Source of the DNA: a bacterium
GTDB lineage: Bacteria > Bdellovibrionota_C > UBA2361 > SZUA-149 > JAQTWB01
NCBI GenBank assembly: GCA_028689495.1
Contig: JAQTWB010000002.1
Coordinates: forward strand, 1 to 64,000
Length of the DNA stretch: 64,000 nt
Direction of reading: 5' to 3'
Shown in pieces: positions 1-28,635 of the stretch (the stretch's first letter is position 1; each line of letters starts with the position of its first letter). The notes beneath the pieces were generated by a model that was given only the letters and a program-made list of their open reading frames with translations, ran no database searches and had not been told where the DNA came from. A program made the position numbers and the translations under genes.

Positions 1-64
1 GGAGTTTGGCAAGCGTAGCTTGCTCATAGCCTAAAATTTCTCAAATTTTAGGCAAAGATAACCA

Positions 65-144
65 ATACCATTTCAGCTCTGGAAAAAGAGTGAAAAATCT
101 TTGATTTTTTCAGCTAAAAATTAAGACCATTTTTGAAACGGTAT
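65..144. repeat. 80-bp element bounded by ATACCrTTTCA inverted ends
   Basis: The left end ATACCATTTCA (65-75) pairs with the right end TGAAACGGTAT (134-144) with one mismatch. Between them is an AT-rich hairpin of the form GAAAAATC/GATTTTTTC. The right end carries the GACCATTTTTGAAACGGTATA box, which recurs near 12590, 14092 and, inverted, 24227. It looks like a small non-coding repeat, possibly a MITE-like remnant; no transposase is nearby. Confidence 0.5.
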
Positions 145-359
145 AGCTCAAAACTCAAGTCCAGGCAAAAAGTGAAACACGCTACAGGCCGACCGCACCA
201 AAGTTGTTTCGATCATCAGAATCAACCGTATCGTTCAAATTATTGTTGTTACCGTAGAGCGCGGGCCTTGCGTCCGCCCGGCTGTGATGAGGTTGTCGCT
301 GATGCACAAATTGTTTGACAACGGTCGTTGTGAGATCGATCGGCAATAATAATGCGTAT

Positions 360-394
360 GTTGTTTGGGCAGACACAAGGCCTGCCCAAACAAC
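360..394 (-). terminator. 13-bp stem hairpin downstream of the PAS gene
   Basis: GTTGTTTGGGCAG (360-372) and CTGCCCAAACAAC (382-394) form a perfect 13-bp stem with a 9-nt loop. It lies 37 bp beyond the stop of the last gene of the minus-strand signalling operon, where a terminator is expected. No clear U-tract follows on that strand, so it may instead be an mRNA-stabilising hairpin or a repeat. Confidence 0.4.
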
Positions 395-431
395 TGCCGA
401 ATTTATGTAAAACTTCCAAATTAGGCACAGC

Positions 432-1502
432 TCACTCGAACGCTTGCAGGGCAATCTGAATGCGCAAAATATAACGTTGAAAGTTAGCCGATATATCCTT
501 GGAACTTGATGCACAACTTTCTACCAGCAAATCTATATTGTGCTGCAAATCTTTCTCGTTACCTGCCCCACCACCTGCGACCTCGTTAATGAAAAATTTT
601 GTCATTTCCACCTTCAATTTCGAAGCCTGCACCGCAAACATGATTTCATTGAGATATTTTTTTAAAATCCTGGTCCTCTTGGTCATATCAACGTTACGAC
701 CACCAACCTCACCGTTACCACCTTTCTCCTGGATGCCCACAAGATTAAGGGCTCCAAGTGACATCTCACGTACCGAATCTGCTGTTTCAAGAATAGAACC
801 GGCCTTTTCAATAATGTCATTGTTAATTGGATAATAGGCGCTGACTTTGTCGCACAGCAGTGCCAATTGCTCGTCCAGGTTATGACACTTGTCGTATAAC
901 TCTTTAAGCTTGCCACTTGTAGCTTTGCTTCCATGCGCCACTACCAGTGACAATTCGTCACGCGCTTTCATTTCAGCGACCAAAGCGGTCGTCATGAACT
1001 CATCATAGTCAGCAAACCCGACACTCGTCAGCACCTCCAATAATTTGTCAGTACTTGCCGCTATTGCATCCTTACGTGAAGCACCAGATGCCTCCAGATT
1101 ATTCTCAAGCTCAAGCAAACTTTTATAAACACCCTGAACAGTGGTGAACAATTCACTACTTGGTTTCAAACGTATTGAGAGATAACCATCTCTACATGGC
1201 ATAAGAATCGCCAGTACCCAGTAATAACTACCATCCTTGGCTTTATTTTTGACATATCCGGAAACTGTCTTTCCCGCTTCAAGATAATCCCAAACCAGTT
1301 TGAACACACATCTTGGCACATCGGAATGACGTATAATGTTATGTGGTTTACCGACGAGTTCGGAAAACTCATACCCGGCAATCCGAGTAAAGACCTCATT
1401 CCCGTAAAGTATGATGCCCTTGGTATCGGTTGTTGAAAAAAACAGTTCATCAACCTTGAATTCTCTTTCGACATCGCGCTCGCCAGCAGATTCGTTCGCC
1501 AT
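432..1502 (-). CDS. PAS-domain signalling protein (Aer-like PAS)
   Basis: A 356-residue protein whose N-terminal third is a PAS fold of the aerotaxis (Aer) kind. The segments GYEFSELVGKPHNIIRHSD and KDGSYYWV match the PAS core and PAC strand of that family. The remaining 230 residues are mostly helical and I see neither a methyl-accepting signalling hairpin nor a kinase domain, so output is probably by protein-protein contact. There is no signal peptide or membrane segment. I start at the ATG at 1502, preceded by GTGAG; an upstream TTG at 1535 has no ribosome binding site. It is the last gene of a minus-strand operon after two roadblock proteins, an OmpA-like protein and a Ser/Thr kinase. Whether it binds haem or FAD cannot be told from sequence. 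Confidence 0.75.
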   Translation of the reverse strand: MANESAGERDVEREFKVDELFFSTTDTKGIILYGNEVFTRIAGYEFSELVGKPHNIIRHSDVPRCVFKLVWDYLEAGKTVSGYVKNKAKDGSYYWVLAILMPCRDGYLSIRLKPSSELFTTVQGVYKSLLELENNLEASGASRKDAIAASTDKLLEVLTSVGFADYDEFMTTALVAEMKARDELSLVVAHGSKATSGKLKELYDKCHNLDEQLALLCDKVSAYYPINNDIIEKAGSILETADSVREMSLGALNLVGIQEKGGNGEVGGRNVDMTKRTRILKKYLNEIMFAVQASKLKVEMTKFFINEVAGGGAGNEKDLQHNIDLLVESCASSSKDISANFQRYILRIQIALQAFE

Positions 1503-1583
1503 AATATTTCTCACTTCGATAAAAGTTTTGCTCAACAGGCAAGATTACACAACCTATCTCAGCCCAAATTAGTCCTATAATTT

Positions 1584-2018
1584 TCAGGATAATGTCTTAC
1601 TTAAATTGGTATTGGTTAACGAAAGAATTCCCACCTCAACTTCACCGAGAGAAAATAGTGCCACTTTCTTCATCGAACCCACCACGATTGTCTGTTGTAA
1701 AGGACCAAGATTCAGCGAATCACAAATCTTTCCAGCAGAGTTAATCGCCAACTGGGACATGGCCGCAAGACCTTCCAAATCATCCTGCACACCATGACTC
1801 TCTACCAGCAACCCCTCGTTCGAGATGAAACAGGCTATAATTCCAGGCCTCTTGGAGATATCTTCTACAAGGCGGTGCAACGCCAAAAAGAACGCATCCT
1901 TTGACTCCTTGAGTAGCGGAGTAACGGATGCCCCTTCCTTCGCAACAACATAGGTATGCTGTTGATATTGGCCCTTGAGCTGATTAATAATTTCTAACTG
2001 TCCGGCAAGCCAATGCAT
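1584..2018 (-). CDS. Roadblock/LC7-like protein (first of pair)
   Basis: A 144-residue protein with the roadblock/LC7 pattern: a helix, then strand segments such as GIIACFISNEGLLVESHG, a long helix around LEGLAAMSQLAINSAGKI, and strands through TIVVGSMKKVALFSLGEVEVGIL. Family members (MglB and relatives) are dimeric regulators or scaffolds of small Ras-like GTPases. It has a strong GGAGG six bases before the ATG. It lies 72 bp after the second roadblock gene, which is a clearer family match. No MglA-like GTPase is encoded nearby, so the partner must be elsewhere or absent. Family assignment is by fold pattern only. Confidence 0.65.
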   Translation of the reverse strand: MHWLAGQLEIINQLKGQYQQHTYVVAKEGASVTPLLKESKDAFFLALHRLVEDISKRPGIIACFISNEGLLVESHGVQDDLEGLAAMSQLAINSAGKICDSLNLGPLQQTIVVGSMKKVALFSLGEVEVGILSLTNTNLSKTLS

Positions 2019-2090
2019 ATTGCCTCCATAGCGGCAGGTTCATCGTTTATCTCAGGTTGAAGATGAACATCACCTTTCTGTCTTTCTTGT

Positions 2091-2471
2091 CTACTGGAAT
2101 AATGGAATTAACTCCGCAATTGTTTGCTTCACTTCAAAACGCACAGCACCCAGCATGACGGAGCTGTCTGCCGTTACAGTAAGAATAAACCCGGCGCCGA
2201 AAGATGTCACGATGATCAAACCTTCTTTGTTCTCGGCAATCAGAATGTTGGTGTCGCCCTGTTTTAACTGCTTAGAACCCCGAACTGCTGAACCGTACAT
2301 GATTTGAACTGCCGCACCGAGCGCATCCACATCAATATCGAAGTCTCTTCTGACGTGAGTCACAAACCCGTCAGCATCAACAATTGCCGAAGATGTAACG
2401 CCTCGAAGCAATGTTAACCCAGCAAGCAACTCTTCAATCTTCTCGTTTTTTTCTGTTCTTGATAATGACAT
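2091..2471 (-). CDS. Roadblock/LC7 domain protein (MglB-like)
   Basis: A 126-residue single-domain protein. It shows the classic roadblock order: N-terminal helix with EELLAGLTLLRGVTSSAIVD, the strand and turn DADGFVTHV, a central helix rich in small residues, and the strand pair TNILIAENKEGLIIVTSFG followed by a C-terminal helix. In characterised systems such proteins regulate or bind small GTPases that set polarity or motility. The start is supported by GAGGAG eight bases upstream of the ATG. It lies between the OmpA-like gene and the second roadblock gene on the same strand, so co-transcription is likely. Confidence 0.8.
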   Translation of the reverse strand: MSLSRTEKNEKIEELLAGLTLLRGVTSSAIVDADGFVTHVRRDFDIDVDALGAAVQIMYGSAVRGSKQLKQGDTNILIAENKEGLIIVTSFGAGFILTVTADSSVMLGAVRFEVKQTIAELIPLFQ

Positions 2472-2511
2472 AGCGATTTCTCCTCATCCTTATTGTTAAA
2501 TCAACCAAATA

Positions 2512-3609
2512 CTAACCTCTACAATACACCGTTACCTTTCTCTCTTGTCTTCTATCTATTGCGCGATTCTCTCGGGCACGATGATGTTCGATTGCCGCCT
2601 TCTCTTCACCAGAACTCATCGTCACAATTTTCGATTCGGAAATCCCATGCTCCAACAATAGCTTGAGCACACTCTCGGCGCGTCCGGCACCCAGGCGCTT
2701 ATTATAAGAGCTTGGACCGATATCACAGGTCTGCCCTTCTATAATGATTTTCCCACTACAACTCTCTACCTTACCAAGCTGTTGCCGATAGTTCTCGGCA
2801 GATTGGCCCGTTAACTTAAACTGATTGAACGAGAAGAACACCTCAAACAATATTTTCTCATCGTTGCCCGGAAGATTACTATCTTGTACGACTTGATTAT
2901 CGAAACTTGGTTCCAGGGTGACTTCTCTTACACTATCAGTCACAGAAGCGACTTCTGCCTCTGATTCAATTGGCTCACTTTCACCAGTCGCTATTGGCGG
3001 GATAATTTCGAGTTTGCTTTTCATTTCCGTATCAACGAGTTCTGAAACAGGAAAATCTGAATCATCACTTTCGACGGCAATTGTTTTTGTTACAATTCCA
3101 TCTACCGCTTCTACTGAAGAATACTCCCCTGATGAGTCTTCCGTTGATGAATTTTCAGCAATTGGCAGCTTGTCAGAAGCTTTTGCCAAAATCTCTTCAG
3201 CATCTGCACCGTAAAGTTCAGTCAGGTCATTTTTCACTTCCGCCTCAACCCTCTGACGCAAATTCTCCCGATTTTTCTTATCACCGACTAGAACTTCTTC
3301 CCCTTGTTTCGATGTCTGCTCGCTTGGAGCATTGCTCTTAGCCAACAAATCATCGTTGAGAGCCGGCTTCGAACCGCTTGTGACATTTCTCCCATTTGCT
3401 AACAAGACAACCACAAAGACAAAAGATATCAATAGAATCAACCCACCAACAATTATGATTCGTGTTCTCGAACTTCCAGCAATGCCTGTTCTTTGCAAAG
3501 CAGGCGGAGACACAGGCGCTACCAGTGTTGCATCAGCACCACCCTCTAATTCCATCGGACTGGTAACAGTACCAATGCCATCCAGTGCATCGTGATCAAG
3601 GTAACTCAT
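2512..3609 (-). CDS. Membrane-anchored OmpA-like peptidoglycan-binding protein
   Basis: A 365-residue protein in three parts: about 48 soluble residues, one hydrophobic span around residues 50-72 (IIIVGGLILLISFVFVVVLL), a long acidic Ser/Glu-rich linker, and a C-terminal OmpA-like domain from about residue 250. That domain keeps the family pattern (IIIEGQTCD, the RAESVLKLLLEHGI helix, final ENRAIDRRQERKV), although the usual GHTD is replaced by EGQTCD. The single N-terminal span suggests an inner-membrane protein with its cytoplasmic tail near the kinase and its OmpA domain reaching toward murein, like MotB-type proteins. It follows the kinase gene by 11 bp, and GTGAG precedes the ATG. Such proteins are plausible kinase substrates; that is inference. 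Confidence 0.75.
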   Translation of the reverse strand: MSYLDHDALDGIGTVTSPMELEGGADATLVAPVSPPALQRTGIAGSSRTRIIIVGGLILLISFVFVVVLLANGRNVTSGSKPALNDDLLAKSNAPSEQTSKQGEEVLVGDKKNRENLRQRVEAEVKNDLTELYGADAEEILAKASDKLPIAENSSTEDSSGEYSSVEAVDGIVTKTIAVESDDSDFPVSELVDTEMKSKLEIIPPIATGESEPIESEAEVASVTDSVREVTLEPSFDNQVVQDSNLPGNDEKILFEVFFSFNQFKLTGQSAENYRQQLGKVESCSGKIIIEGQTCDIGPSSYNKRLGAGRAESVLKLLLEHGISESKIVTMSSGEEKAAIEHHRARENRAIDRRQERKVTVYCRG

Positions 3610-3620
3610 AACTCACAATT

Positions 3621-5996
3621 CTATTTAATGTCCTGCACGCAGCGGAAACCGATATACGGATAGGACTTCTTGTTCCACACAGCAATCCGAGCAATTTTTC
3701 CATCATCATCAACACATCTATGTTGAAACGAACCACCAAATACCCAAACATGATCCTTTTCACGCGGTGAATTTACCTCTGAAAGTTCAGTCCACTCCCA
3801 GACATTGCCTAGCAAATCCATACATCCCGCCTTGCTGGCACCGGTTGAATACTGACTTACCGGGCAGGTGCCCTTCACTCCCTCTCGCGGCTGATGACAT
3901 AAGCTCACATTGAATTCATTACCCCAAGGATAAGCCCGACCGTCCGGACTACGAGCAAGCAATTCCCATTCACTTGAAGTTGGCAATCGACAACCCTTCC
4001 AGTCAGCATATTTCCTGGCATTATCAATTGTCAGATCAACAATTGGATGTTTCTCCATTCCACGTGGTGGTTTGTTGGCAATCCACGAAGGAGGAGAAAT
4101 GCTTTTTGTTGCAGCGAGGTACTCGGCATACTGCGCGTTGGTCACCAGTGTAATATCAACCAGCAAATCAGGAATACTAATGAGTCCATTGTAATGAGAC
4201 TCAAACTCACAACCGGATACCAAAACCATACCACCAGGGATTTTTATATTGGCAAGTCGTTTTGCTCTTTTATCAGCTTCAACAATCTGCTCTATCTGCC
4301 GATGCAGCTCATCGGGAATAACAAATGATGTTTTTGTCTGCAGTATCTTGTTCGCCAAAGCAATCATCTGAGCACTGTCAGGCTTTCTATCGAGAACTTC
4401 GCGAAGCCCCTTAATTGCCGAAGCGATATCACCCTTGTCGACCAGCAATTCCAGTTGTTCAATCGTCGCATCAATCTGTTGAGTCTTTTCTTGTATGGAA
4501 GGTTTATCCTTGTATCGGGACTGAAAAGTTCTCTTATCCGCGGCACCAACTACATCTTTTGTCAGCCTAACTCTATCCTCACCGACATCTGTTTGCACTT
4601 TTACCTTACGTTCTGAGTCAGTGTTCCCCGCGTTCGGCGCGGCAGATTGAGGTTTTCCGGTCTCATTGTTTAGCGAATTAACATCTTTATCTTTCCCAAG
4701 AGCCGTTTTTGTTTTAGTCACTTCTTGACTATCGATCGACTTTCCTACCGAGACAGATATGTTCTCTTGATGCTGGATATCAATTGAAGCTGCATCAACG
4801 GACAGCGCTTCAACACTAACCTGTGGAGAAGGTTGCAACTCCGATTCCGACAGCTGTAAAATGCGATCAATCTCATCAATGACCAGGTACGCTGTTTTTG
4901 GGCGAACTTCCCGATCTTTGGAAAGCATTCGCATGATCAACGCTTCAACTACCTCCGGTATTTGCTTGTCTGGGACACGAACATTCAATGGTTCAGGTGT
5001 CTTGAAAAGATGAGAAATCAAACACTGCAAATCATGCACTGTCTCGAACAACGGGAATCCCGACAGCAACTCATAACCGATCGCACCGACGCTGTAGATA
5101 TCGCTTCGAGCGTCAAGGCAATCATCATTTATATGCTCCGGCGACATATACTGAGGTGAGCCCACGATAGCTCCGTGGAGCGTTATCGCGGTCATTGTGT
5201 TGTGCAAGGGATCGATAATCTTGGCAACACCAAAATCAAGCACTTTCACAAAATCACTATTAACACCGACTTTTGTTAAAAAGATGTTCCCAGGCTTTAT
5301 GTCGCGATGAATTATTCCAAGCTCATGAGCCTCTCCCAAAGACGCCAGTATCTGCCTTAGAATCTTTAAACATCTCCGCCAAGGGATTGGCCCATCACGG
5401 AGCAACTCTTCAAGAGTCACCCCATCAAGATATTCCATCACGAGGAACAGCAAACCCTCGCTGGCCTGACCAAAGTCATGCATCACGATAGTATTGGGGT
5501 GACGAAGGCGGCTAATCGCCTGTGCTTCCAGAGTGAAGCGATGGCGTAAATTCTGTCCGAACCCATCTACCTCTTGCATTACCTTAATCGCCACATGGCG
5601 ATTAACGACAATCTGCAGACCTTCATAGACCGAACCCATGCCGCCTTCACCGATCTTCCGCAAAATTTTGTAGCGCTCGAGAAACAGGGTTCCCGTTAAT
5701 GAATCATCTTTTAGCGAACCATTCAGTGGACGACGGACATGTGACTTGGGCAGAATCTGACTCTGATTCTGAAATAGTTCCTCAACTGCTCCTTCGTTCC
5801 TCGACAACAAGCTCTCTTTGACTTGTGCGTTGAGCTTGATTTCCCTGGTGTCATTACTTGGCCCACCTGTTACAGATATCTTGCTGCCTTTTACTTCAGG
5901 TATTTTATAGTCCTGGCTAGCAATGGGCGCACCTCTATCTGTTCGCCGTGTCTTTTGCGGCGATTTCTTAGCGGTGATTTTTTTCCAAATTGACAT
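3621..5996 (-). CDS. Ser/Thr protein kinase with C-terminal SUMF1/FGE-like domain
   Basis: A 791-residue protein. After a basic, disordered N-terminus comes a Hanks-type kinase: glycine loop GEGGMGSV (about 116-123), VAIK lysine at about 138, HRD aspartate at about 232 and DFG aspartate at about 254, all present. A long polar linker and a short TPR-like helical stretch lead to a formylglycine-generating-enzyme/sulfatase-modifying-factor fold from about residue 585 (GGMVLVSG, LPTSSEWELLAR, GNVWEWT, IGFRC). The first of the two FGE active-site cysteines appears absent (GGSFQHRC), so this domain is probably binding rather than catalytic. No membrane span is seen. I prefer the ATG at 5996; an in-frame TTG at 6047 lacks a good ribosome binding site. 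First gene of the operon. Confidence 0.85.
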   Translation of the reverse strand: MSIWKKITAKKSPQKTRRTDRGAPIASQDYKIPEVKGSKISVTGGPSNDTREIKLNAQVKESLLSRNEGAVEELFQNQSQILPKSHVRRPLNGSLKDDSLTGTLFLERYKILRKIGEGGMGSVYEGLQIVVNRHVAIKVMQEVDGFGQNLRHRFTLEAQAISRLRHPNTIVMHDFGQASEGLLFLVMEYLDGVTLEELLRDGPIPWRRCLKILRQILASLGEAHELGIIHRDIKPGNIFLTKVGVNSDFVKVLDFGVAKIIDPLHNTMTAITLHGAIVGSPQYMSPEHINDDCLDARSDIYSVGAIGYELLSGFPLFETVHDLQCLISHLFKTPEPLNVRVPDKQIPEVVEALIMRMLSKDREVRPKTAYLVIDEIDRILQLSESELQPSPQVSVEALSVDAASIDIQHQENISVSVGKSIDSQEVTKTKTALGKDKDVNSLNNETGKPQSAAPNAGNTDSERKVKVQTDVGEDRVRLTKDVVGAADKRTFQSRYKDKPSIQEKTQQIDATIEQLELLVDKGDIASAIKGLREVLDRKPDSAQMIALANKILQTKTSFVIPDELHRQIEQIVEADKRAKRLANIKIPGGMVLVSGCEFESHYNGLISIPDLLVDITLVTNAQYAEYLAATKSISPPSWIANKPPRGMEKHPIVDLTIDNARKYADWKGCRLPTSSEWELLARSPDGRAYPWGNEFNVSLCHQPREGVKGTCPVSQYSTGASKAGCMDLLGNVWEWTELSEVNSPREKDHVWVFGGSFQHRCVDDDGKIARIAVWNKKSYPYIGFRCVQDIK

Positions 5997-6329
5997 CGCC
6001 TGCCTAGAAACCCAAAACCTGTCATTAAGTGTCGCGAAACATCCCAACCAAAGGCATACGGAGTCCCCCTACTGCCACTGCCCAGTGAGTCCTTCGACCA
6101 AACCACAAATTATCTTGAGTCCTGAATACATCTCTTTATTCAGCTAGCTGCATGCATTAGTAACCATTTGATTTAATTGGATTAAAGGCCCAGTATATAC
6201 TGCTCACACTTTAATTTTTCCGGTCCAGAACACCTCAATCCCGAGCAGTATATTTGGAGCTGCGGAGCAGCGACCAGATAACCATTATTCCCCTCCCGCT
6301 AACGTTAGTGCCGATCAGAATCGGGAGGG
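5997..6329. other. Intergenic region between kinase and MFS genes
   Basis: It contains one copy of the ATACTGCTC/GAGCAGTAT repeat (6195-6310) and nothing else I can support. The upstream control region of the signalling operon should lie near 6000-6180; I see no strong promoter match there. Confidence 0.6.
6195..6310 (-). repeat. ATACTGCTC/GAGCAGTAT repeat, copy 1
   Basis: ATACTGCTC and GAGCAGTAT bracket about 35 bp, followed by a GCTGC/GCAGC hairpin and CCAGATAAC. The same order, inverted, is found at 24370-24459, and a shortened version at 13940-14003. Here an extra CATTATTCCCCTCCCGCT sits between GATAAC and AACGTTAGT, flanked by AAC on both sides; copy 2 reads straight through GATAACGTTAGT. 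Confidence 0.75.
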
Positions 6330-7628
6330 CTATATTGAACTTCCGACTGGCTTACGCATGTCGGAGCCTGTCGCCAAATCATCGTAATCCAAAATTCCTT
6401 CATCTCCCTCGACAAAGTTCAGATCCTTGCCAAAGGTTTCGCTCAAACACCAAAGTGCCAGCAATGAAGCTATTAGCACAATGAGACAAACAACTTCGGC
6501 ACTGCCGATTACACCAATTAAAGGCTTTAAATAATTAAATAGCAGCGTCATCAGCACAACTGTTCCACGGACAAAATTAGGCACCGTTGTTGTAACAGTC
6601 GCGCGCAAATTTGTACCGAACTGTTCCGCTGCTGCCGTAACAAACACCGCCCAATAGCCAGCAAAAAAACCAATCATCGCCAAGCCGCCATAAAATACTT
6701 CGGCAGAAATACCGCCAGCATTGAGTAACGCCAACGACAACCCGCAAGTAAGCAACATAAATGTCAAAATGGTTTTTTTCCGACTTCGCCAAATCTGGCT
6801 GACAAGGCCACTTGCGAAATCCCCTGTGGTAATTCCAAAGTAGCAAAACAGAACCGCCGTTGAGACTTTGATTTCTCCAACAACACCAAGCGCCAATGAT
6901 ATTTCCGGACTGAAGGTAACAATAATCCCAACGACGAACCATATGGGAATACCAATGACTATGCTGCTCAAATAACGCAAAAACCGCTCTCCTGAGCTAA
7001 ACAGAAGTCTGATGTCACCACATCTAACACCCTCCTGCCTCTGAATCGACTCAAATAAACCGCTCTCTGAAACTGAGACACGTAGTAAAAGCAATCCCAG
7101 ACCCATCACACCGCCAATGATATAAGCGGTAGACCATGAAAACATATCACCCACCAGACCAGCAACAACTGCCCCCGAGACACCAATAGTCGCGACTATT
7201 GTCGTGCCGTAACCTCGAGTCTCTTTCGGCATTAGCTCACTGACAAGTGTTATCCCGGCACCAATTTCTCCGGCAAGCCCCATCCCGGCCAGAAACCGCA
7301 GCACGGCATATTGAGGAACCGAAGTAACAAAAGCATTGGCGATATTGGCAAAGGAATATAAAAGGATCGAACCAAAAAGCACCTGGAGGCGGCCACGCTT
7401 ATCACCCCAAACACCCCAAAGTATCCCACCCACCAACATCCCGATCATCTGCATATTCAATAACAGCACACCATCGGAAAGCAGCTTATCACCAGTTACC
7501 CCAAGGGACTTCAAGCTTGCGACACGAAGAATACTGAAAAGCACAAGATCGTAGACATCAACAAAATACCCAAGGGCGGCGACCAGTATGGCGATATTTG
7601 TTTTCTGCCTGGTTGTAAGGTTAGACAT
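6330..7628 (-). CDS. Major facilitator superfamily transporter
   Basis: A 432-residue integral membrane protein with about 12 hydrophobic spans. The loop after span 2 reads GVWGDKRGR, the MFS signature (GxxxDxxGR). The first span carries DVYDLVLF, resembling the acidic first span of the metabolite:proton symporter branch (sugar, aromatic-acid and dicarboxylate carriers). RFLAGMGLAGEIGAG after span 4 and LMPKETRGYG fit the same group. Substrate cannot be assigned. I start at the ATG at 7628; a TTG at 7649 is in frame and neither has a clear ribosome binding site. Upstream sequence carries a 14-bp tandem repeat. It stands alone, with a tRNA gene upstream. Confidence 0.85.
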   Translation of the reverse strand: MSNLTTRQKTNIAILVAALGYFVDVYDLVLFSILRVASLKSLGVTGDKLLSDGVLLLNMQMIGMLVGGILWGVWGDKRGRLQVLFGSILLYSFANIANAFVTSVPQYAVLRFLAGMGLAGEIGAGITLVSELMPKETRGYGTTIVATIGVSGAVVAGLVGDMFSWSTAYIIGGVMGLGLLLLRVSVSESGLFESIQRQEGVRCGDIRLLFSSGERFLRYLSSIVIGIPIWFVVGIIVTFSPEISLALGVVGEIKVSTAVLFCYFGITTGDFASGLVSQIWRSRKKTILTFMLLTCGLSLALLNAGGISAEVFYGGLAMIGFFAGYWAVFVTAAAEQFGTNLRATVTTTVPNFVRGTVVLMTLLFNYLKPLIGVIGSAEVVCLIVLIASLLALWCLSETFGKDLNFVEGDEGILDYDDLATGSDMRKPVGSSI

Positions 7629-7662
7629 GATGGAATCAACTAAAATCAAAATTCACACAATA

Positions 7663-7690
7663 GAAATCACACGGAGGAAATCACACGGAG
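7663..7690. repeat. 14-bp exact tandem repeat upstream of the MFS gene
   Basis: GAAATCACACGGAG occurs twice back to back (7663-7676 and 7677-7690), followed by GAAA. It lies 35-62 bp upstream of the chosen start of the MFS gene, where a regulator binding site or promoter would be. Function unknown. Confidence 0.7.
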
Positions 7691-7847
7691 GAAAAATACA
7701 AATGTGATTCTACTAAACGTACGGGGAATTTACAGCCAACTCGTGTATTGCCACACATCAGGGCCGGCAGGATGAATAACATCAAACGAGATGAGGCGAA
7801 AAACCAATCCCGCCCAACATTTCGCAGCTATTGAATGGTGTTTTATA

Positions 7848-7933
7848 TGCCCAGAGCGAGACTCGAACTCGCACGTCGCTTTCGCAACTCAGGATTTTAA
7901 GTCCTGTGTGTCTACCGATTCCACCATCCGGGC
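7848..7933 (-). tRNA. tRNA-Leu (anticodon UAA)
   Basis: Read on the minus strand, the 86-nt gene has acceptor stem GCCCGGA pairing with TCTGGGC (one G-U), discriminator A, D-loop with GGTAGACAC, an anticodon stem AGGAC/GTCCT-type hairpin whose loop holds TAA, a long class II variable arm (TGCGAAAGCGACGTG) and the T-arm GAGTTCGAGTCTC. These features identify leucine. The CCA end is not encoded. A TATATT hexamer 24-29 bases before the 5' end could be the -10 box, but no good -35 is visible. Confidence 0.95.
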
Positions 7934-8005
7934 TAAAAAAGATGGAGAGAGTGGGAAATATACCGCTACCCCCTAGTGAGACCTCCCTATATCAGCTTCA
8001 CCTGT

Positions 8006-9814
8006 TCAGGTCGAGAATCGATCTTTGCTGCAGTTCCCCGGCCTTGGGGTCTCCGGCACGGAAGGAATCAAACGCTTTGGCCGGAAAACCGCCAAAGCAT
8101 CAAACGGCATTTCCAGCAGTAAGTAAATATCTTTTCCAACCGACAACCGCGAAACAACAGAATATCTAATCTGGCACTCTTCGAGCTGATTTACTCTCCA
8201 GCCTTCCTCAATGGCATCAAGCAAAATGTAGGCTACAGCATTGGGAGACATATCTCTCGATATCACCTCTTCAGTAAGACGCCGCACCTCGACACCATTT
8301 CGCCGCAGATAATAAGTAAGCCAGCGCTGAAACATATCCAGCTGGTAAATGCGAATGGACTGCTGTTCCTCTCCCCTCGCCCGAAGCGACAACTCGATCT
8401 GCGCCACTATCGGACGCACAGAGTATCTCTCAACCCGAAATGGTACATAAACATAAACGTAGATTAACCGCGCAAAAAGCATAACAAGAAAAACCACACC
8501 AAGCAGAAATGAGCTGGCACTGCAATTGCGGCAAAAAACCGAACTATCACCACATCCTCTAACAATCACCGGCCAGGAAACCTTTCGAAAAATATAACCG
8601 GCCAAGCTTCTTGTCGTGGAGCAAATTAACTCAGCACCTCCCGAATGAAGATAATCGGCCATCACTATCGAAAAAAATGGCAGCAGCATAAATATATAGC
8701 GGCTCGACTTGGCCTCAGCCAAAGAAAGGAATAGAAATCCAGACAGAATGGTCAACCAGGAGAAGGTTATCAACAATGGTTGCCGGTTAAAAGTCCGCAA
8801 ATATCCTCGCCATCTTTCACCAGATGTTTTACCTATACCGCGACTCCCGGACAACCTGGTTGATAAAGCTGCAACCGCCAATGGAAGAAAAAAAATAAAA
8901 CTCCACGGTAACATACTTGATAAAAGCGCATAGACGTAAAAAAACGAACCCCTGGCCCGACTGCCGTCACTCAAATAGCGATCAATAAATTCACTTTTTA
9001 TCACCTGATCCACCTGCTCAAATCCTGCATTGCCTGCAATCATCAGCAACCAAACAGTGTACGGTGCCAGTCCAAGAATCAGTGCCATTAAAAATCCGCG
9101 GAGACGAATTGAGAACAAATAACCTGACAAAGTATAACCAGCTCGTTCTCCCACAAGACTGCTGGTGAGTTCCAGCAAAAAAAACACTGCACAAAACAAC
9201 ACCAGCGCAAGTGGGCCCTTGACCAAAATCGCAAGCCCCAAAACGACACCAGCTATCAGGTAATAAAGCAGACACTCCCGCTGCATGGCCAAAAGCAATA
9301 AAAACAATGCCATCACGGAGAACAATGCATAGGTCATATCGATCTCGGCAAGCGTGGCAAGCAACATGGTCTGGCCAAAGGTCGCAAAGATCAGAGCGGC
9401 GGAACGAGCTCGCGCCCGACAACATTCCACCTTAAAATCCTGCTCAGTAAAAAAAAGAAAGGTAAAAACGTAAATACAAAGGGAAAGCAAGATGGCGGCA
9501 GTAACCGAACACAAACGGACGGTCGCTTCGTTATGGCCAAAAAAATCGATAAAGCCAGCCAACAGCCAATAGTAAACTGGTGGTTTGGTAAAAATCTCCG
9601 AGCCTAGCAAATGCGGGACAAGATAGTCTCCTGTCTCCAGCATCTCCCAAGCGATGAGGGTTCGATCAGCTTCAGTGTGGCGAAAAAATTCAAGCTGACC
9701 AAGGCCAGGAAGATAAAGCGCAATAGTAAATAGAACTATTAAGACAAGATCCGCAGCAAACAAAAAAACAGCACGCGCATTATTACTACTATGCGCATCA
9801 GATAGCCTCAACAT
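8006..9814 (-). CDS. ArnT/PMT-like membrane glycosyltransferase (GT39/GT83 type)
   Basis: A 602-residue polytopic protein with about 10-12 hydrophobic spans in its first 450 residues and a soluble C-terminus. The first periplasmic loop carries the family signature: an acidic pair in HTEADRTLIAWEMLETG, then LVPHLLGSEIFTKPPVYYW, matching the EARY...P...G...KPPLYYW pattern of ArnT and related enzymes. These move a sugar from a polyprenyl-phosphate donor onto a lipid or protein on the periplasmic face. The acceptor is unknown here; lipid A or protein are both possible. No arn or capsule operon accompanies it, although a family-4 glycosyltransferase lies about 1.3 kb upstream. ATG start; no strong ribosome binding site. 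Confidence 0.8.
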   Translation of the reverse strand: MLRLSDAHSSNNARAVFLFAADLVLIVLFTIALYLPGLGQLEFFRHTEADRTLIAWEMLETGDYLVPHLLGSEIFTKPPVYYWLLAGFIDFFGHNEATVRLCSVTAAILLSLCIYVFTFLFFTEQDFKVECCRARARSAALIFATFGQTMLLATLAEIDMTYALFSVMALFLLLLAMQRECLLYYLIAGVVLGLAILVKGPLALVLFCAVFFLLELTSSLVGERAGYTLSGYLFSIRLRGFLMALILGLAPYTVWLLMIAGNAGFEQVDQVIKSEFIDRYLSDGSRARGSFFYVYALLSSMLPWSFIFFLPLAVAALSTRLSGSRGIGKTSGERWRGYLRTFNRQPLLITFSWLTILSGFLFLSLAEAKSSRYIFMLLPFFSIVMADYLHSGGAELICSTTRSLAGYIFRKVSWPVIVRGCGDSSVFCRNCSASSFLLGVVFLVMLFARLIYVYVYVPFRVERYSVRPIVAQIELSLRARGEEQQSIRIYQLDMFQRWLTYYLRRNGVEVRRLTEEVISRDMSPNAVAYILLDAIEEGWRVNQLEECQIRYSVVSRLSVGKDIYLLLEMPFDALAVFRPKRLIPSVPETPRPGNCSKDRFST

Positions 9815-9932
9815 TTGTCACACAAGAAAATTACGATCGAGGATGCCGCAGTCCCTGATCTTGCCCTGTCGACTGTCCCCCGGACATCAAGACCCCCTCG
9901 GACAGCCAGGAGCTGCGGCAAAAAGCACCTTG

Positions 9933-10535
9933 CTACTCGGCCTTGAGGTAATCCTCCATCGCTTTTATGTCCAGACCAGAGGCCAGCGACTGCAATTGTT
10001 CTGAGGTCACCTTACCATTCGCTGCTTCGACAGTCAGAAGGTTCCCCTCTGAAAGTGTCAGCATCAACTTCTTTGAGCCACCCTCATCCTGAACGGTAGC
10101 TCTTTTCCCAGCGACACGAACAACCTCTGTTCCCGGCACATTGCCCATCATCGCTGCCATCTGCGCCATTCCGGCAAAAGAGCCAAGGCCAGACGCGGGG
10201 CCACCAGCCGAAGAACTCCCAACAAGAGTAATGTTGACCGAACCATCTGCGCCTGTATATCGGCTCTCAATATTCATAAGTCCCATAGCACTGCTGGACT
10301 CCACCTTCTCACGCTTATAACCCGCCAATTCTACCGGGAAGAACCCTTCAATCTTCTTCGTGTGCAACTTGCTGAGCTCCTGACTAACCCAATTCAGTTC
10401 GCCAAGTGCAGCGCTATAATTACCCTCTTCTTTCAATTGTTTGACGCGATCGAGCATTGCAGCAAAATCCTCCTCAGCCAAAACTGAAGCGGGTAACAAT
10501 CCAAGAAATATAAGTGTTAAAGTTTTTTTAAGCAT
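9933..10535 (-). CDS. Secreted protein of unknown function
   Basis: A 200-residue protein with a clear signal peptide (MLKKTLTLIFLGLLPASVLA, cleavage expected after ALA-type residues), then a helical stretch rich in Lys/Glu with one TPR-like repeat (EGNYSAALGELNWV), a middle beta-rich segment and a Gly/Met/Ala-rich patch around 117-133. I do not recognise a named family with confidence. The ATG at 10535 has AGGAG eight bases upstream, which decides the start. It lies 68 bp after pgpA on the same strand and may be read with it. Probably periplasmic. Confidence 0.7.
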   Translation of the reverse strand: MLKKTLTLIFLGLLPASVLAEEDFAAMLDRVKQLKEEGNYSAALGELNWVSQELSKLHTKKIEGFFPVELAGYKREKVESSSAMGLMNIESRYTGADGSVNITLVGSSSAGGPASGLGSFAGMAQMAAMMGNVPGTEVVRVAGKRATVQDEGGSKKLMLTLSEGNLLTVEAANGKVTSEQLQSLASGLDIKAMEDYLKAE

Positions 10536-10603
10536 ATCCAATTCTCCTACAAAGAAAAGTTACCCCATCGAAATTAAAATACCACGCGACAGTCCCGGAC
10601 CGC

Positions 10604-11110
10604 CTATGTCGGCAGCAGTCTAAGCAGGATGCCGGCAAAAACGCCAGCAATAATATCATCCGCCATAATCCCCCAGGCGCCTGGAAGCGCCTCAACTCGG
10701 GATATCGGGAAAGGCTTCCAAATATCGAACAGACGAAAAAACAGAAAAGCGATAACAATCGGCCACGCACCCTGCACGTCATACGAAGCTGAGCCAACAA
10801 AAGACAGTGCAACAAAATAGCCTGCCGCTTCATCGACAACAACCTCCTGCGGATCTTCCGCCGAGCTTAAATTACCACCTGTTTCCAGCAAATAAGAGGT
10901 CGCCAAAAATCCGAAGACAGAAAAGAACAAAGAAAATGTCAAAGACGGCACTTCGCCAATAAAAAAATAAGCCAGAACAGCAAGGATTGCCGCGACAGCA
11001 GTGCCCGCTGTGCCGGGAGCTTTTGGACTAAGCCCACTATAAGCCAACGTCACCAGAAAATATGAAACTCGAGTCCTTGTCATCGACAGATCGATATCGC
11101 GATCACTCAC
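10604..11110 (-). CDS. pgpA: Phosphatidylglycerophosphatase A
   Basis: A 168-residue membrane phosphatase that removes the phosphate from phosphatidylglycerophosphate, the last step of phosphatidylglycerol synthesis at the inner membrane. Signature segments are all present: SGLSPKAPGTAGT near the N-terminus, DPQEVVVDEAAGY, RLFDIWKPFPI and GIMADDIIAG, whose acidic residues bind metal. Length is normal. I choose a GTG start at 11110: AGGAG lies seven bases upstream and the GTG overlaps the stop of the glycosyltransferase gene in GTGAGTGA, a typical coupled junction. Upstream ATG codons in frame lie inside the preceding gene and are less well placed. Confidence 0.9.
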   Translation of the reverse strand: MSDRDIDLSMTRTRVSYFLVTLAYSGLSPKAPGTAGTAVAAILAVLAYFFIGEVPSLTFSLFFSVFGFLATSYLLETGGNLSSAEDPQEVVVDEAAGYFVALSFVGSASYDVQGAWPIVIAFLFFRLFDIWKPFPISRVEALPGAWGIMADDIIAGVFAGILLRLLPT

Positions 11111-12437
11111 CCGAAACTCCTGCATTCTCACCCGACAACACCCGGCCGGGGAGAGAAGTAAGAACAGCCAATTGCTTCCGCCCCAGGACCTGGGCATACA
11201 TTCGTCCTACCTGACTACGAAATTCGTTATAGTTATAACGTGTCTCAATCAACCGGGCGGAGTTTTCGGTCACCTTGCGAACGCGCATTGCACCAAATGG
11301 CGAGGTATCAAGAGCCCGGGCCAACTGCGCAGCGAAACTGTCAGCTGTAATGTCCGAGAGAAACGCTGTCTCAGAAGAAAGAACCTGGGTATGCGTTCCA
11401 ATTGCGGTAGCAACAATCGGGCGACCTGAAGCCATATAACTGTATATCTTGAGCGGAGTATTGTCTCCCTGCATCCGCGGTGAAACCAGAACATCGGCAA
11501 GCGCCATATAGGTCCCCATCTCGTCTGCTGGTCTGGTCCCGGTAAACACCACATTCTCCTCCACATTCAGACTGCGGACCAAGCGCGAGACGTTGTCAAA
11601 ACAACGCTCTCCTTTCTTGCCACCACCAACAAGAAACAATTTGAACGGGCCAATGTGGTGCTCTTTTTTGAGCAGAGCAATTGACTGCAACAATAACTCG
11701 ACACCCTGATAGGTCTCGAAGTTGCCCGTATAAACTATAACTTTCACCTCCTCCGACAAAGCATATTGCTCACGAAGAGACTCGAGCAGTTGCATCCTCG
11801 GAGCCGAACTACCTTCAACAGGGAAATCCTCGGCTTGAAATATCCTGTCAATAGTCGTGAACTCCGCAGCTTTTTCAGTCAATGCCCGACAGACAGTCAA
11901 AACAGCATCAGCTCGACGGATCAAAGTCGCCTCTGAGGCACGAGCAAAACGCCTTAACCAGGAAAATGGCAGCATACGCTTATCGCATAGCTGACGGACC
12001 ATGCAGGAATCCATATCGTAGACAAACGGCACACCTGAAATCCATGCCAGCACCGCCGCCATAAATCCGCCTTCCTCCACTCCATGAAGTGCCGCATAAC
12101 GATGAAAAACCACAAGACGAAGGGCAGTAAAAAAAAGAAATACATCAAGCAGAATTTTTGTCGCCGAAGGACCAATCGGCACCGACTTGACACCGGGAAG
12201 TCGCAAAGAGCGGTAGATACGAACACCGGGAATCGAAATTTTCTCACCCAGCGGATAAACCAACAGATCCGGACGATACCCCTCTTCAACCAACGCTCTG
12301 ACGAGTGCCCGAACATTAAGCGGAGTCCCTCTCGTCATAAAAAATGGCTGGGGAGCAATCACCAGAAGACGCGGAGCAACCCGTCCACCGGGAGTTCTCT
12401 CGTGACCCTGGGCCTTGCTGTCAATCTGCACCGTCAT
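11103..12437 (-). CDS. Glycosyltransferase family 4 (GT-B fold)
   Basis: A 444-residue cytoplasmic enzyme. The N-terminal domain has PFFMTRGTPLNVRALVRAL and DLLVYPLGE, typical of the acceptor-binding half. The C-terminal donor-binding half shows VIVYTGNFETYQGVELLL, LFLVGGGKKGE, VVFTGTRPADEMGTYMALA and the ending DNTPLKIYSYMASGRPIVAT, in the place of the family EX7E motif. It probably transfers a sugar from a nucleotide sugar to a lipid-linked or glycan acceptor. It overlaps pgpA by 8 bp, suggesting co-expression with phospholipid synthesis, though neighbours do not reveal its product. The start is uncertain: ATG at 12437 or GTG at 12443, neither with a strong ribosome binding site. Confidence 0.8.
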   Translation of the reverse strand: MTVQIDSKAQGHERTPGGRVAPRLLVIAPQPFFMTRGTPLNVRALVRALVEEGYRPDLLVYPLGEKISIPGVRIYRSLRLPGVKSVPIGPSATKILLDVFLFFTALRLVVFHRYAALHGVEEGGFMAAVLAWISGVPFVYDMDSCMVRQLCDKRMLPFSWLRRFARASEATLIRRADAVLTVCRALTEKAAEFTTIDRIFQAEDFPVEGSSAPRMQLLESLREQYALSEEVKVIVYTGNFETYQGVELLLQSIALLKKEHHIGPFKLFLVGGGKKGERCFDNVSRLVRSLNVEENVVFTGTRPADEMGTYMALADVLVSPRMQGDNTPLKIYSYMASGRPIVATAIGTHTQVLSSETAFLSDITADSFAAQLARALDTSPFGAMRVRKVTENSARLIETRYNYNEFRSQVGRMYAQVLGRKQLAVLTSLPGRVLSGENAGVSGE

Positions 12438-26188: not shown

Positions 26189-27604
26189 ATGAAGAGGACA
26201 GTCAATCACAGTGCACTGTTTATCTACCTCGACAGCAAGGAAGGCAAAACGCCATCCCCAATATCGATCGGCCTGTTTTTTTTCGCATGCCTTTTAATCT
26301 GTAGCACTTTAACCGTTTCAACGCTGAACTACATAAAAGAGGACATCAACACTTCTACGTTATTGGTCATCAGCTTCCCTTGCCTGCTGACCGCTGTTTT
26401 CATGACAATAGCCTACTTCCAGCAACGGACCATCAAAGCAATTATCGACATTCATTTAGAGCAATGCACCGAACTGGAGCACGTCTTTTCTATTAACCCT
26501 CTGGCTATATTACTGCTAAATCGCAGCGGACAAATTACCGCCCTCAACGAGCTTGCCGCCAAAATACTGACAGCAAAAGCAAATGACAATATACGCCAAT
26601 CAATAAGTCGAGAAATCATCTCGTTCCCTTCCACAAATAGTATTGAGATAATCCTGCAAGCAAACGAACGAGGGAAATGCCCTATCGTCGTGCATTCCGT
26701 TGAGCGAAAGCTCTCTGGGACACTCCATTTCTGGCCGAGCAAACTCGGAGGAGCCGACAACCTGACGTTGGTCATAGAAGACAATTCAGCTCTTCATGAG
26801 GCAAGCAATAAAAGTGTCGAATTACAACACAGGCTGCATCGGGCACAAAAAATTGAGGCCATTGGCATGCTCGCTGATGGCATTGCCCACGATTTTAATA
26901 ATATCCTCCAACCTATCCTGGGCCTCAGTGAAATGGGGATGGAGGATGTTGAACCAGACAGTCCGATATACAAAAGCCTGGCGAGGATTCATCGTGCCGG
27001 CACTAGAGCGAAACAACTTGTTAAACAAATCCTGTCTCACGGACACAAAAGCAAATTCAAAACTGTCGAATTAAACATCAATGAATCAATCAACGAGGCG
27101 TTAGAACTCTACCACAGCATTATCCCTCCACGAATCAGTATTTCCAGAAGTCTCAGTCCCCACCTTTCGCCGATTCTGGCGGATCCAATAGTTATTCAGC
27201 AGATTATCTTCAATATCCTGAAAAACGCTTTTGACGCGATGGAAGGTAGCGGTGGCTCAATTGTCATATCGACAATCAATCTGGACGTCACTAACGTCAC
27301 TCCTCTATTCAACACCGAACTAGCTCCCGGACAATACGTAAAACTCTCTATTGAAGACAATGGACCCGGTATCCCGGCAAAAATAATCGAAAAGATTTTC
27401 GATCCTTTTTTCACGACCAAAGCGGTTGACAAAGGAACAGGTCTTGGCCTGTCCAGTGTTCTGAAGATATTACAGGAGATGGGAGCCGGTGTTTCTGTGC
27501 GCAGTCAACCAGCACAAGGAGCATCTTTCTCGTTCTATTTTCGCTCCTGCGAAAACCCAAACACGACCAAGGCCCCGTCTGACCGTGGCGGAGTTATTCC
27601 ATGA
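26189..27604 (+). CDS. Membrane histidine kinase with PAS domain
   Basis: A 471-residue sensor kinase. Two hydrophobic spans (about 28-52 and 60-78) are separated by only a few residues, so there is almost no periplasmic sensor. A PAS-like segment follows ([21 protein letters not shown]). The dimerisation helix has the phospho-acceptor His at about 234 in AHDFNN, the variant common in two-component kinases acting on receiver proteins such as the one downstream. The ATPase domain has N box NILKNAFDA (about 342), DNGPGIP and GTGLGL. AAGGAG lies just upstream of the ATG. The stop overlaps the next gene (ATGA), a Ser/Thr kinase. Confidence 0.9.
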
Positions 27605-28635
27605 GTCTGGAGAATACCCTCAGCGAAATGACACATCTCGATCGCGGTGCCACGCTGGCACCTGGCGAACGAATCGCCGATCGATACGAAGTCATCCGGC
27701 ACCTCGGAACTGGCGGCAGCAGTGAAGTGTACCTTTGCTCTGACCTGGAGCAACCACAACGAGAAAAAATTGCCGTTAAACTGATGTCACACAGTGAAGA
27801 AGAGCTTTTCGGCCCCGGCGTTCATGAAGTCAATGTTGCAAGATTCCTTGATGAAGTAAAAATCTCCCGCATCTTGTCCCACCCAAATATTATTCAGGTA
27901 CATGAATTAATTCGTACAGAGTGCTCTCTAGCTTTTACGATGGAACATATTGAGGGAGATAATCTCGCTGAACTGATCGCAAGCAACTCCTCCATGCCAA
28001 TCGCAAATTCTCTCTATATATTCCGTGAAGTTGCCAAAGCAGTCTCTTTCATGCACTCGCTGGGCATTATTCACCGCGACATCAAACCGGACAATATCCT
28101 CAGAGCCCACGACGGACGAGTCAAAGTAATTGATTTTGGCACTGCCAGAATGGAGGGTAGTCTGGGGATACAAGGTGAAATCGCCGGAACTCTTTCATAT
28201 CTCAGCCCTGAATATCTCAAGGATGGACAACTGGATAATCGCTCGGATATATATTCACTGGGAATGGTGGCCTACGAAATTGTTACAGGAAGCCTCCCAT
28301 TCACCTGTGGTGGCGTAATTCAGACACTACAAATGAGACTCTCATCAGATCCTCCGGCACCAAACAAAAAGAACTGCCTCTGCCCGCCGGAACTGAGCAA
28401 CATAATCCTTAAAACCCTGGAGCGCGATCCGGAACAACGATACCAAAACGCAGCCCAGGTCATCGAAGAGCTTGATAGATATTTCCCGGAAGTGCCTGTG
28501 AAATCTGAAGCCACATCAATCAGCAGGAAAAACAGTTCCAAGTCACAGGAATCGACCGCACTTCCGACTGAAAAAGCAAACCAGGGATTTCTCCAACGAG
28601 TAAGTAATAAATTGCGATTAATATTTGCCGAATAA
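27601..28635 (+). CDS. Ser/Thr protein kinase (Hanks type)
   Basis: A 344-residue soluble kinase. Residues about 26-295 form the kinase fold: LGTGGSSEVYL glycine loop, IAVK with Lys at about 60, HRDIKPDN with Asp at about 160, DFGTAR with Asp at about 178, and YLSPEY as the P+1 region. All catalytic residues are present. The C-terminal 50 residues are polar and end in a basic amphipathic stretch (FLQRVSNKLRLIF) that might touch the membrane. It is translationally coupled to the histidine kinase before it (ATGA), and the receiver gene follows after 16 bp, suggesting linked signalling. Confidence 0.9.
   Translation: MSLENTLSEMTHLDRGATLAPGERIADRYEVIRHLGTGGSSEVYLCSDLEQPQREKIAVKLMSHSEEELFGPGVHEVNVARFLDEVKISRILSHPNIIQVHELIRTECSLAFTMEHIEGDNLAELIASNSSMPIANSLYIFREVAKAVSFMHSLGIIHRDIKPDNILRAHDGRVKVIDFGTARMEGSLGIQGEIAGTLSYLSPEYLKDGQLDNRSDIYSLGMVAYEIVTGSLPFTCGGVIQTLQMRLSSDPPAPNKKNCLCPPELSNIILKTLERDPEQRYQNAAQVIEELDRYFPEVPVKSEATSISRKNSSKSQESTALPTEKANQGFLQRVSNKLRLIFAE

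Follow-up and report, generated by a model that had tools for sequence, protein, structure and literature searches.

Bacterial roadblock proteins are known chiefly as partners of MglA-type GTPases, and a pair of them encoded next to a serine/threonine kinase raises the question of what else this fold might do. The pair lies in the window analysed here, a stretch of 64,000 nucleotides from a member of Bdellovibrionota_C (GenBank JAQTWB010000002.1) that forms the start of contig C149 in a 3.4-Mb genome of 216 contigs. On the minus strand at 432-5996, five co-directional open reading frames encode, in order, a kinase (P0005), a transmembrane OmpA-like protein (P0004), two roadblock proteins (P0003 and P0002) and a PAS protein (P0001), separated by gaps of 11, 40, 72 and 81 bp, in agreement with the operon-like row described in an earlier note made from the sequence alone. 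By eye, GGAG stretches resembling ribosome-binding sites precede P0003 and P0002. We tentatively favor, at somewhat less than even confidence, the reading that this operon is a kinase-roadblock signaling module, redox-informed and membrane-associated, which possibly feeds an MglA switch. The set looks like a signaling module not described before, and its function, like the co-transcription of its genes, the contacts between its proteins and its output, is put forward here as a prediction. No open-licence paper on a roadblock set with such a kinase, OmpA protein or operon was found, judged by titles and the starts of abstracts. The kinase-roadblock unit is supported by the operon together with a gene fusion in a distant genome; P0001 and P0004 are placed in the module only through the operon, and the MglA output is suggested by the roles of short roadblocks elsewhere.

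Two unlike roadblock proteins and a putative cytoplasmic kinase

Both P0003 (38.0 bits) and P0002 (25.6 bits) exceed the Robl_LC7 cut-off of 23 (Pfam PF03259; Pfam domains were counted throughout when above curated cut-offs) and are roadblock/LC7 proteins. We typed them with short-roadblock profiles and a long MglB profile built from loci elsewhere. P0003 scores 69.8 and 80.9 bits with the short profiles versus 29.2 with the long one, and 18.4 bits against the NCBIfam MglB equivalog, whose cut-off is 200, while P0002 scores weakly with the short profiles (24.5 and 31.8 bits) and does not match the long one. Both proteins lack the C-terminal tail of long MglB, with its LDxLF-like ending motif. 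On these profile scores we reject the "MglB-type" identity that had been proposed for the pair. By these profiles P0003 is instead predicted to be an MglC-like short roadblock; its match to MAPKK1_Int (17.5 bits, below the cut-off of 25) was not used as evidence. P0002 is more divergent, with an additional N-terminal helix and no alpha-3, and by eye it is the sole sequence to end before the alpha-3 columns in a 37-sequence alignment. A frameshift as the cause was considered and rejected, since no downstream frame continues a roadblock-like helix (by eye). The model of P0002 alone reaches a mean predicted local distance difference test (pLDDT) score of only 49 and, because the fold is so poor, we used only its order of helices and strands.

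P0005 combines a kinase domain (Pkinase, 155.9 bits) with a SUMF1-like FGE-sulfatase domain, as the earlier note had stated. The domain and the catalytic motifs (a glycine loop, AIK, HRDIKPGN, SPE and, in the translation, DFG within LDFGVAK) identify it by sequence as a Hanks-type Ser/Thr kinase, and since the motifs are those of an active kinase, the protein would be expected to phosphorylate. The same note had called the SUMF1-like domain a sensor, within an idea of envelope-to-cytoplasm signaling. No 19-residue segment of P0005 has a mean hydropathy above 1.21, so that none is of transmembrane strength; this rules out a transmembrane sensor kinase and leads us to predict that the SUMF1-like domain is cytoplasmic, so that a role in envelope sensing is unsupported. 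Human SUMF2 is the only full-span match of this domain to solved structures among the alignments shown, and the C-terminus of P0005 reads GGSFQHRCVDDDGKIARIAV. The cysteine pair of an active FGE such as SUMF1 is seemingly absent. Searches of plasmids matched P0005 in 130 records, none reaching 80% coverage, the 15 listed matching the kinase part; P0003 had no match in plasmids.

Outside the host genome, P0003 is most closely matched (34% identity, E 1.6e-25) by a protein encoded in G161, a distant genome that is 84% complete. This 494-aa protein carries Pkinase at residues 51-288 and a C-terminal Robl_LC7 domain at 381-468, both above the Pfam cut-off, and the gene fusion thus links the kinase and roadblock families. 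In the module that we favor, P0003 and P0002, as unlike short roadblocks, would act as an adaptor for P0005, the cytoplasmic kinase. A narrower possibility is that the roadblocks merely scaffold or tether the kinase, with no GTPase involved. The fusion agrees with this as well, given that MglA was not detected in G161 at its 84% completeness, nor in G298 of the same phylum, yet it is known from one incomplete genome, its kinase part is a probable pseudokinase because HGCLD replaces HRD, and the host genome of the window does carry MglA. We consider this possibility unlikely. Around the G161 fusion there is no neighbor of the kinds found in the window operon.

Roadblock domains also occur in other arrangements. 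The roadblock query A2 gave no confirmed match in viral contigs, one match in the two genomes of the G161 phylum (the G161 protein already known), and matches in 8/396 genomes of the G288 phylum, all from one family and in frames of 230-262 aa. The frames of this family at L182-L186, given as 228-259 aa, consist of the domain plus extra sequence, and no kinase lies nearby in 5 of 8 contexts examined in that phylum. At L159 (4963-6342) and L160 (7198-8457), in two genomes, TPR repeats are fused to a roadblock-like domain with a separate short roadblock gene adjoining; the roadblock-like part at L160 has only MAPKK1_Int among its best 25 families, below the cut-off.

The PAS protein and the predicted membrane anchor

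The PAS domain of P0001 matches PAS_3 above the Pfam cut-off, and with the P0001-family profile, E. coli-type Aer entries score E 1.2e-39 and 3.4e-38, the latter for the Aer PAS structure 8dik_A. The model of P0001 (mean pLDDT 76, about 90 in the PAS domain) superposes on 8dik_A with a template modeling (TM) score of 0.89 over the target and a root-mean-square deviation of 1.2 Å. In Aer, R57 and W70 contact flavin adenine dinucleotide (FAD) (PMC9668731), and the equivalent R58 and W71 of P0001 are invariant in an 18-member family alignment. By modeled fold and contact residues, P0001 is predicted to carry an Aer-type FAD PAS and would bind FAD. No output domain was found with Pfam or in a scan for MCPsignal, which does not match P0001 and matches one of the 18 family members (best E 5e-4); the description of P0001 as an Aer-like PAS protein without output domain therefore stands. 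P0001 is about 50-160 residues shorter than 17 aligned relatives, whose starts were picked by script, and by eye it is missing the region in which they show weak likeness to the tip of methyl-accepting chemotaxis proteins. The family, a PAS domain plus helical tail, occupies 38 loci in the genome_contigs set, mostly labeled Rhodobacterales, and occurs within the host phylum as well (best in G041, 44% identity over residues 11-320), which disfavors plain contamination. At L189 (G000:C130), 3989-4510, the host also encodes a paralogue of P0001 that consists of the PAS domain only (174 aa; 42% identity over residues 9-173). Within the module, the Aer-type PAS would give redox input via the helical tail.

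P0004 has a single strong hydrophobic segment (mean hydropathy 3.3), a 183-residue linker containing 23% D+E and 17% S+T, and an OmpA domain above the Pfam cut-off that resembles Pal/OmpA, as the earlier note had recognized in outline. This layout is that of a predicted inner-membrane protein extending into the peptidoglycan, and P0004 would tie the assembly to both. Of the envelope sensing once envisaged for the operon, this protein is the sole part left standing. P0004 has matches in 43/44 other genomes of the phylum; those listed span the OmpA part and some include part of the linker.

The anchor and P0002 invite comparison with the eukaryotic Ragulator (p18, p14-MP1, p10-HBXIP), which also joins a membrane anchor to unlike roadblocks. 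There, p10 and HBXIP are without alpha-3, as P0002 is, and helices of p18 occupy the groove (PMC5696360). The operon encodes two roadblocks and not four, and we draw a structural parallel for P0002 without claiming homology. Carried further, the parallel suggests that P0002 might take a helix from P0004 or from the P0001 tail, and that a platform tied to wall and membrane might hold both the Hanks kinase and MglA and relay redox state to polarity or motility, a layout that we regard as highly improbable.

MglA, MglB and the possible output

The unlinked MglA-like GTPase that the earlier note had postulated was searched for and is present: contig C61 of the host genome encodes a single MglA with a long MglB as its neighbor, and this MglB (92.0 bits with the long profile) is the third host roadblock. 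Near the pair, at L005 (G000:C61:10000-26000), 3667-8383, genes for a hybrid histidine kinase, a DUF4388 protein (presumably PATAN-like) and a FIST-domain protein lie on the other strand and could provide input for MglA. Within the phylum, an MglA/MglB pair occurs in 6/45 genomes including the host, and MglA of the other five, which belong to the same order as the host, is 76-81% identical; this count leaves out G003, whose MglA-like match is weaker (28%). Robl_LC7 exceeds its cut-off in 4/44 other genomes (G010, G011, G013 and G014), each time as an MglB beside MglA, and falls below it in G031 and G040; G005 has the same pair.

P0003-like matches occur in 59 non-window genomes, and we examined 25 loci around such matches (L120-L124, L146-L165) from 21 of these genomes. 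Ten of the loci hold a strong MglA, nine of them with a long MglB too; short roadblocks thus share loci with MglA, which makes it plausible that P0002 and P0003 act on the MglA switch. Only 2/25 loci include a kinase, and neither kinase adjoins the roadblock. In the favored module the output would probably be the MglA/MglB polarity switch of the other contig, and the roadblock pair, perhaps in phosphorylated form, would shift MglB action on MglA, as thought for Myxococcus MglC.

A related alternative, near the earlier note, makes P0002 and P0003 a dedicated MglC-like co-regulator of the unlinked MglA and MglB, with the kinase and PAS protein upstream. It is consistent with the presence of a single MglA and a single long MglB on C61, with the nine loci that unite all three proteins, and with M. 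xanthus MglC, in which the N- and C-terminal regions present in MglB are missing and which binds to MglB 2:4 (PMC7949163). Relatives of P0002 and P0003 are, however, absent from five of the six MglA/MglB genomes, and in the genome that holds the closest outside relative of P0003, the fusion with a kinase, no MglA was detected. We hold this alternative to be doubtful, and the idea that the roadblocks regulate an unlinked GTPase is left with evidence on both sides.

Conservation and possible origin of the gene set

Several observations weigh against the kinase-roadblock module. Single-sequence searches with P0002 and P0003 found no match at E 0.001 in the 44 other genomes of the phylum, and among 42 loci of P0001 relatives (38 from genome_contigs plus L126-L129, several ending at contig ends) there is no relative of P0002, P0003 or P0005 at E 0.01. 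No second copy of the five-gene set was found, leaving it in a single genome. The G161 kinase, having lost HRD, need not phosphorylate, and the lack of a detected MglA there weakens the MglA output. The region lies at a contig end and is an outlier in composition, with 45.0% GC versus 49.0% in the rest of the window; of 11 window chunks, the first ranks last both in GC (44.7%) and in how well its tetranucleotide frequencies correlate with the remainder (0.79, next 0.84). Promoter-like sites (8 versus 10.1 in shuffles) and terminator-like sites (7 versus 6.4) are not in excess. In addition, a search of 382 genomes with P0002 yielded no convincing match (best other E 7e-4), and roadblocks of the P0002/P0003 type occur in the host only among 45 phylum genomes. 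Conservation thus does not support the whole set as a unit. The earlier note had held that scattering of the genes in relatives would make the order accidental, and a neighborhood survey largely found this, with P0001 and roadblock relatives occurring apart from the other genes.

These data raise the alternative of a recent, accidental or loose cluster brought together by transfer, with joint function only in the roadblock pair. The missing second copy, the deviating composition and the scattered relatives are in its favor, and acquisition of the region by transfer is possible. It is harder to reconcile with the tight one-strand spacing, with the kinase-roadblock fusion elsewhere and with the adjacency of two of the three roadblock genes in 3.4 Mb, which by a rough estimate has a probability of about 0.2% and is beyond chance. 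We judge such a cluster quite unlikely. In tetranucleotide composition, the first two 5.6-kb chunks (window 1-11130) correlate least with the remaining window sequence and may be a genomic island. The contig starts only 431 bp downstream of P0001, the last gene. Farther along, at 26189-28632, lies a histidine kinase gene with another Ser/Thr kinase gene directly behind it in the same orientation.

Table 1. Genes of the five-gene row and their predicted domains, in window positions
Feature	Position	Strand	Basis
P0005, 791 aa, predicted soluble Hanks-type Ser/Thr kinase with C-terminal SUMF1-like domain	3621..5996	-	
P0005 kinase domain, residues 109-369	4890..5672	-	Pfam and motifs (DFG from translation)
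P0005 FGE-sulfatase/SUMF1-like domain, residues 586-787	3636..4241	-	Pfam
P0004, 365 aa, predicted bitopic membrane protein with OmpA-type peptidoglycan-binding domain	2512..3609	-	
P0004 transmembrane segment, residues 51-69	3403..3459	-	Hydropathy
P0004 OmpA domain, residues 258-346	2572..2838	-	Pfam
P0003, 126 aa, predicted short (MglC-like) roadblock/LC7 protein with alpha-3	2091..2471	-	
P0002, 144 aa, divergent roadblock/LC7 protein with additional N-terminal helix, without alpha-3 helix	1584..2018	-	
P0001, 356 aa, predicted Aer-type PAS with shortened helical tail	432..1502	-	
P0001 predicted Aer-type flavin-PAS domain, about residues 21-112	1167..1442	-	

Comparison with described systems places the operon beside several of them. 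The M. xanthus polarity module of MglA, MglB, MglC and RomR with Frz input resembles the host in having MglA, a long MglB and a short MglC-like roadblock, and the C-terminus of RomR, a signal protein, is a helix that binds a short roadblock (PMC12719032); here, in contrast, the short roadblocks accompany a Ser/Thr kinase, a transmembrane OmpA protein and an Aer-like PAS protein. The actinobacterial conservon (CvnA-D) likewise combines a kinase and a roadblock in an operon for membrane signaling, but its kinase is a histidine kinase and its operon includes a GTPase, as described in PMC4316618. By Pfam, the five genes contain neither a GTPase nor a histidine kinase, and MglA is on C61. Neighborhoods of Group 1 Rup GTPases (Wuichet and Sogaard-Andersen 2014; PMC4316618) share a cytoplasmic coiled-coil protein and a protein that joins an inner-membrane helix to an OmpA domain at its C-terminus, but these GTPases are uncoupled from roadblocks in that account, whereas the window operon has roadblocks and no linked GTPase. 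HGbRL of Methylacidiphilum couples a haem/redox-type sensor to a roadblock (PMC4476040), by fusion with a globin and not through a PAS protein.

If the favored reading is true, the fold would have a second signaling use, in which a pair of roadblocks is joined to a Ser/Thr kinase through an operon in this genome and through fusion elsewhere, and the eukaryotic kinase-and-GTPase scaffolds built from the same fold would gain a small bacterial model.

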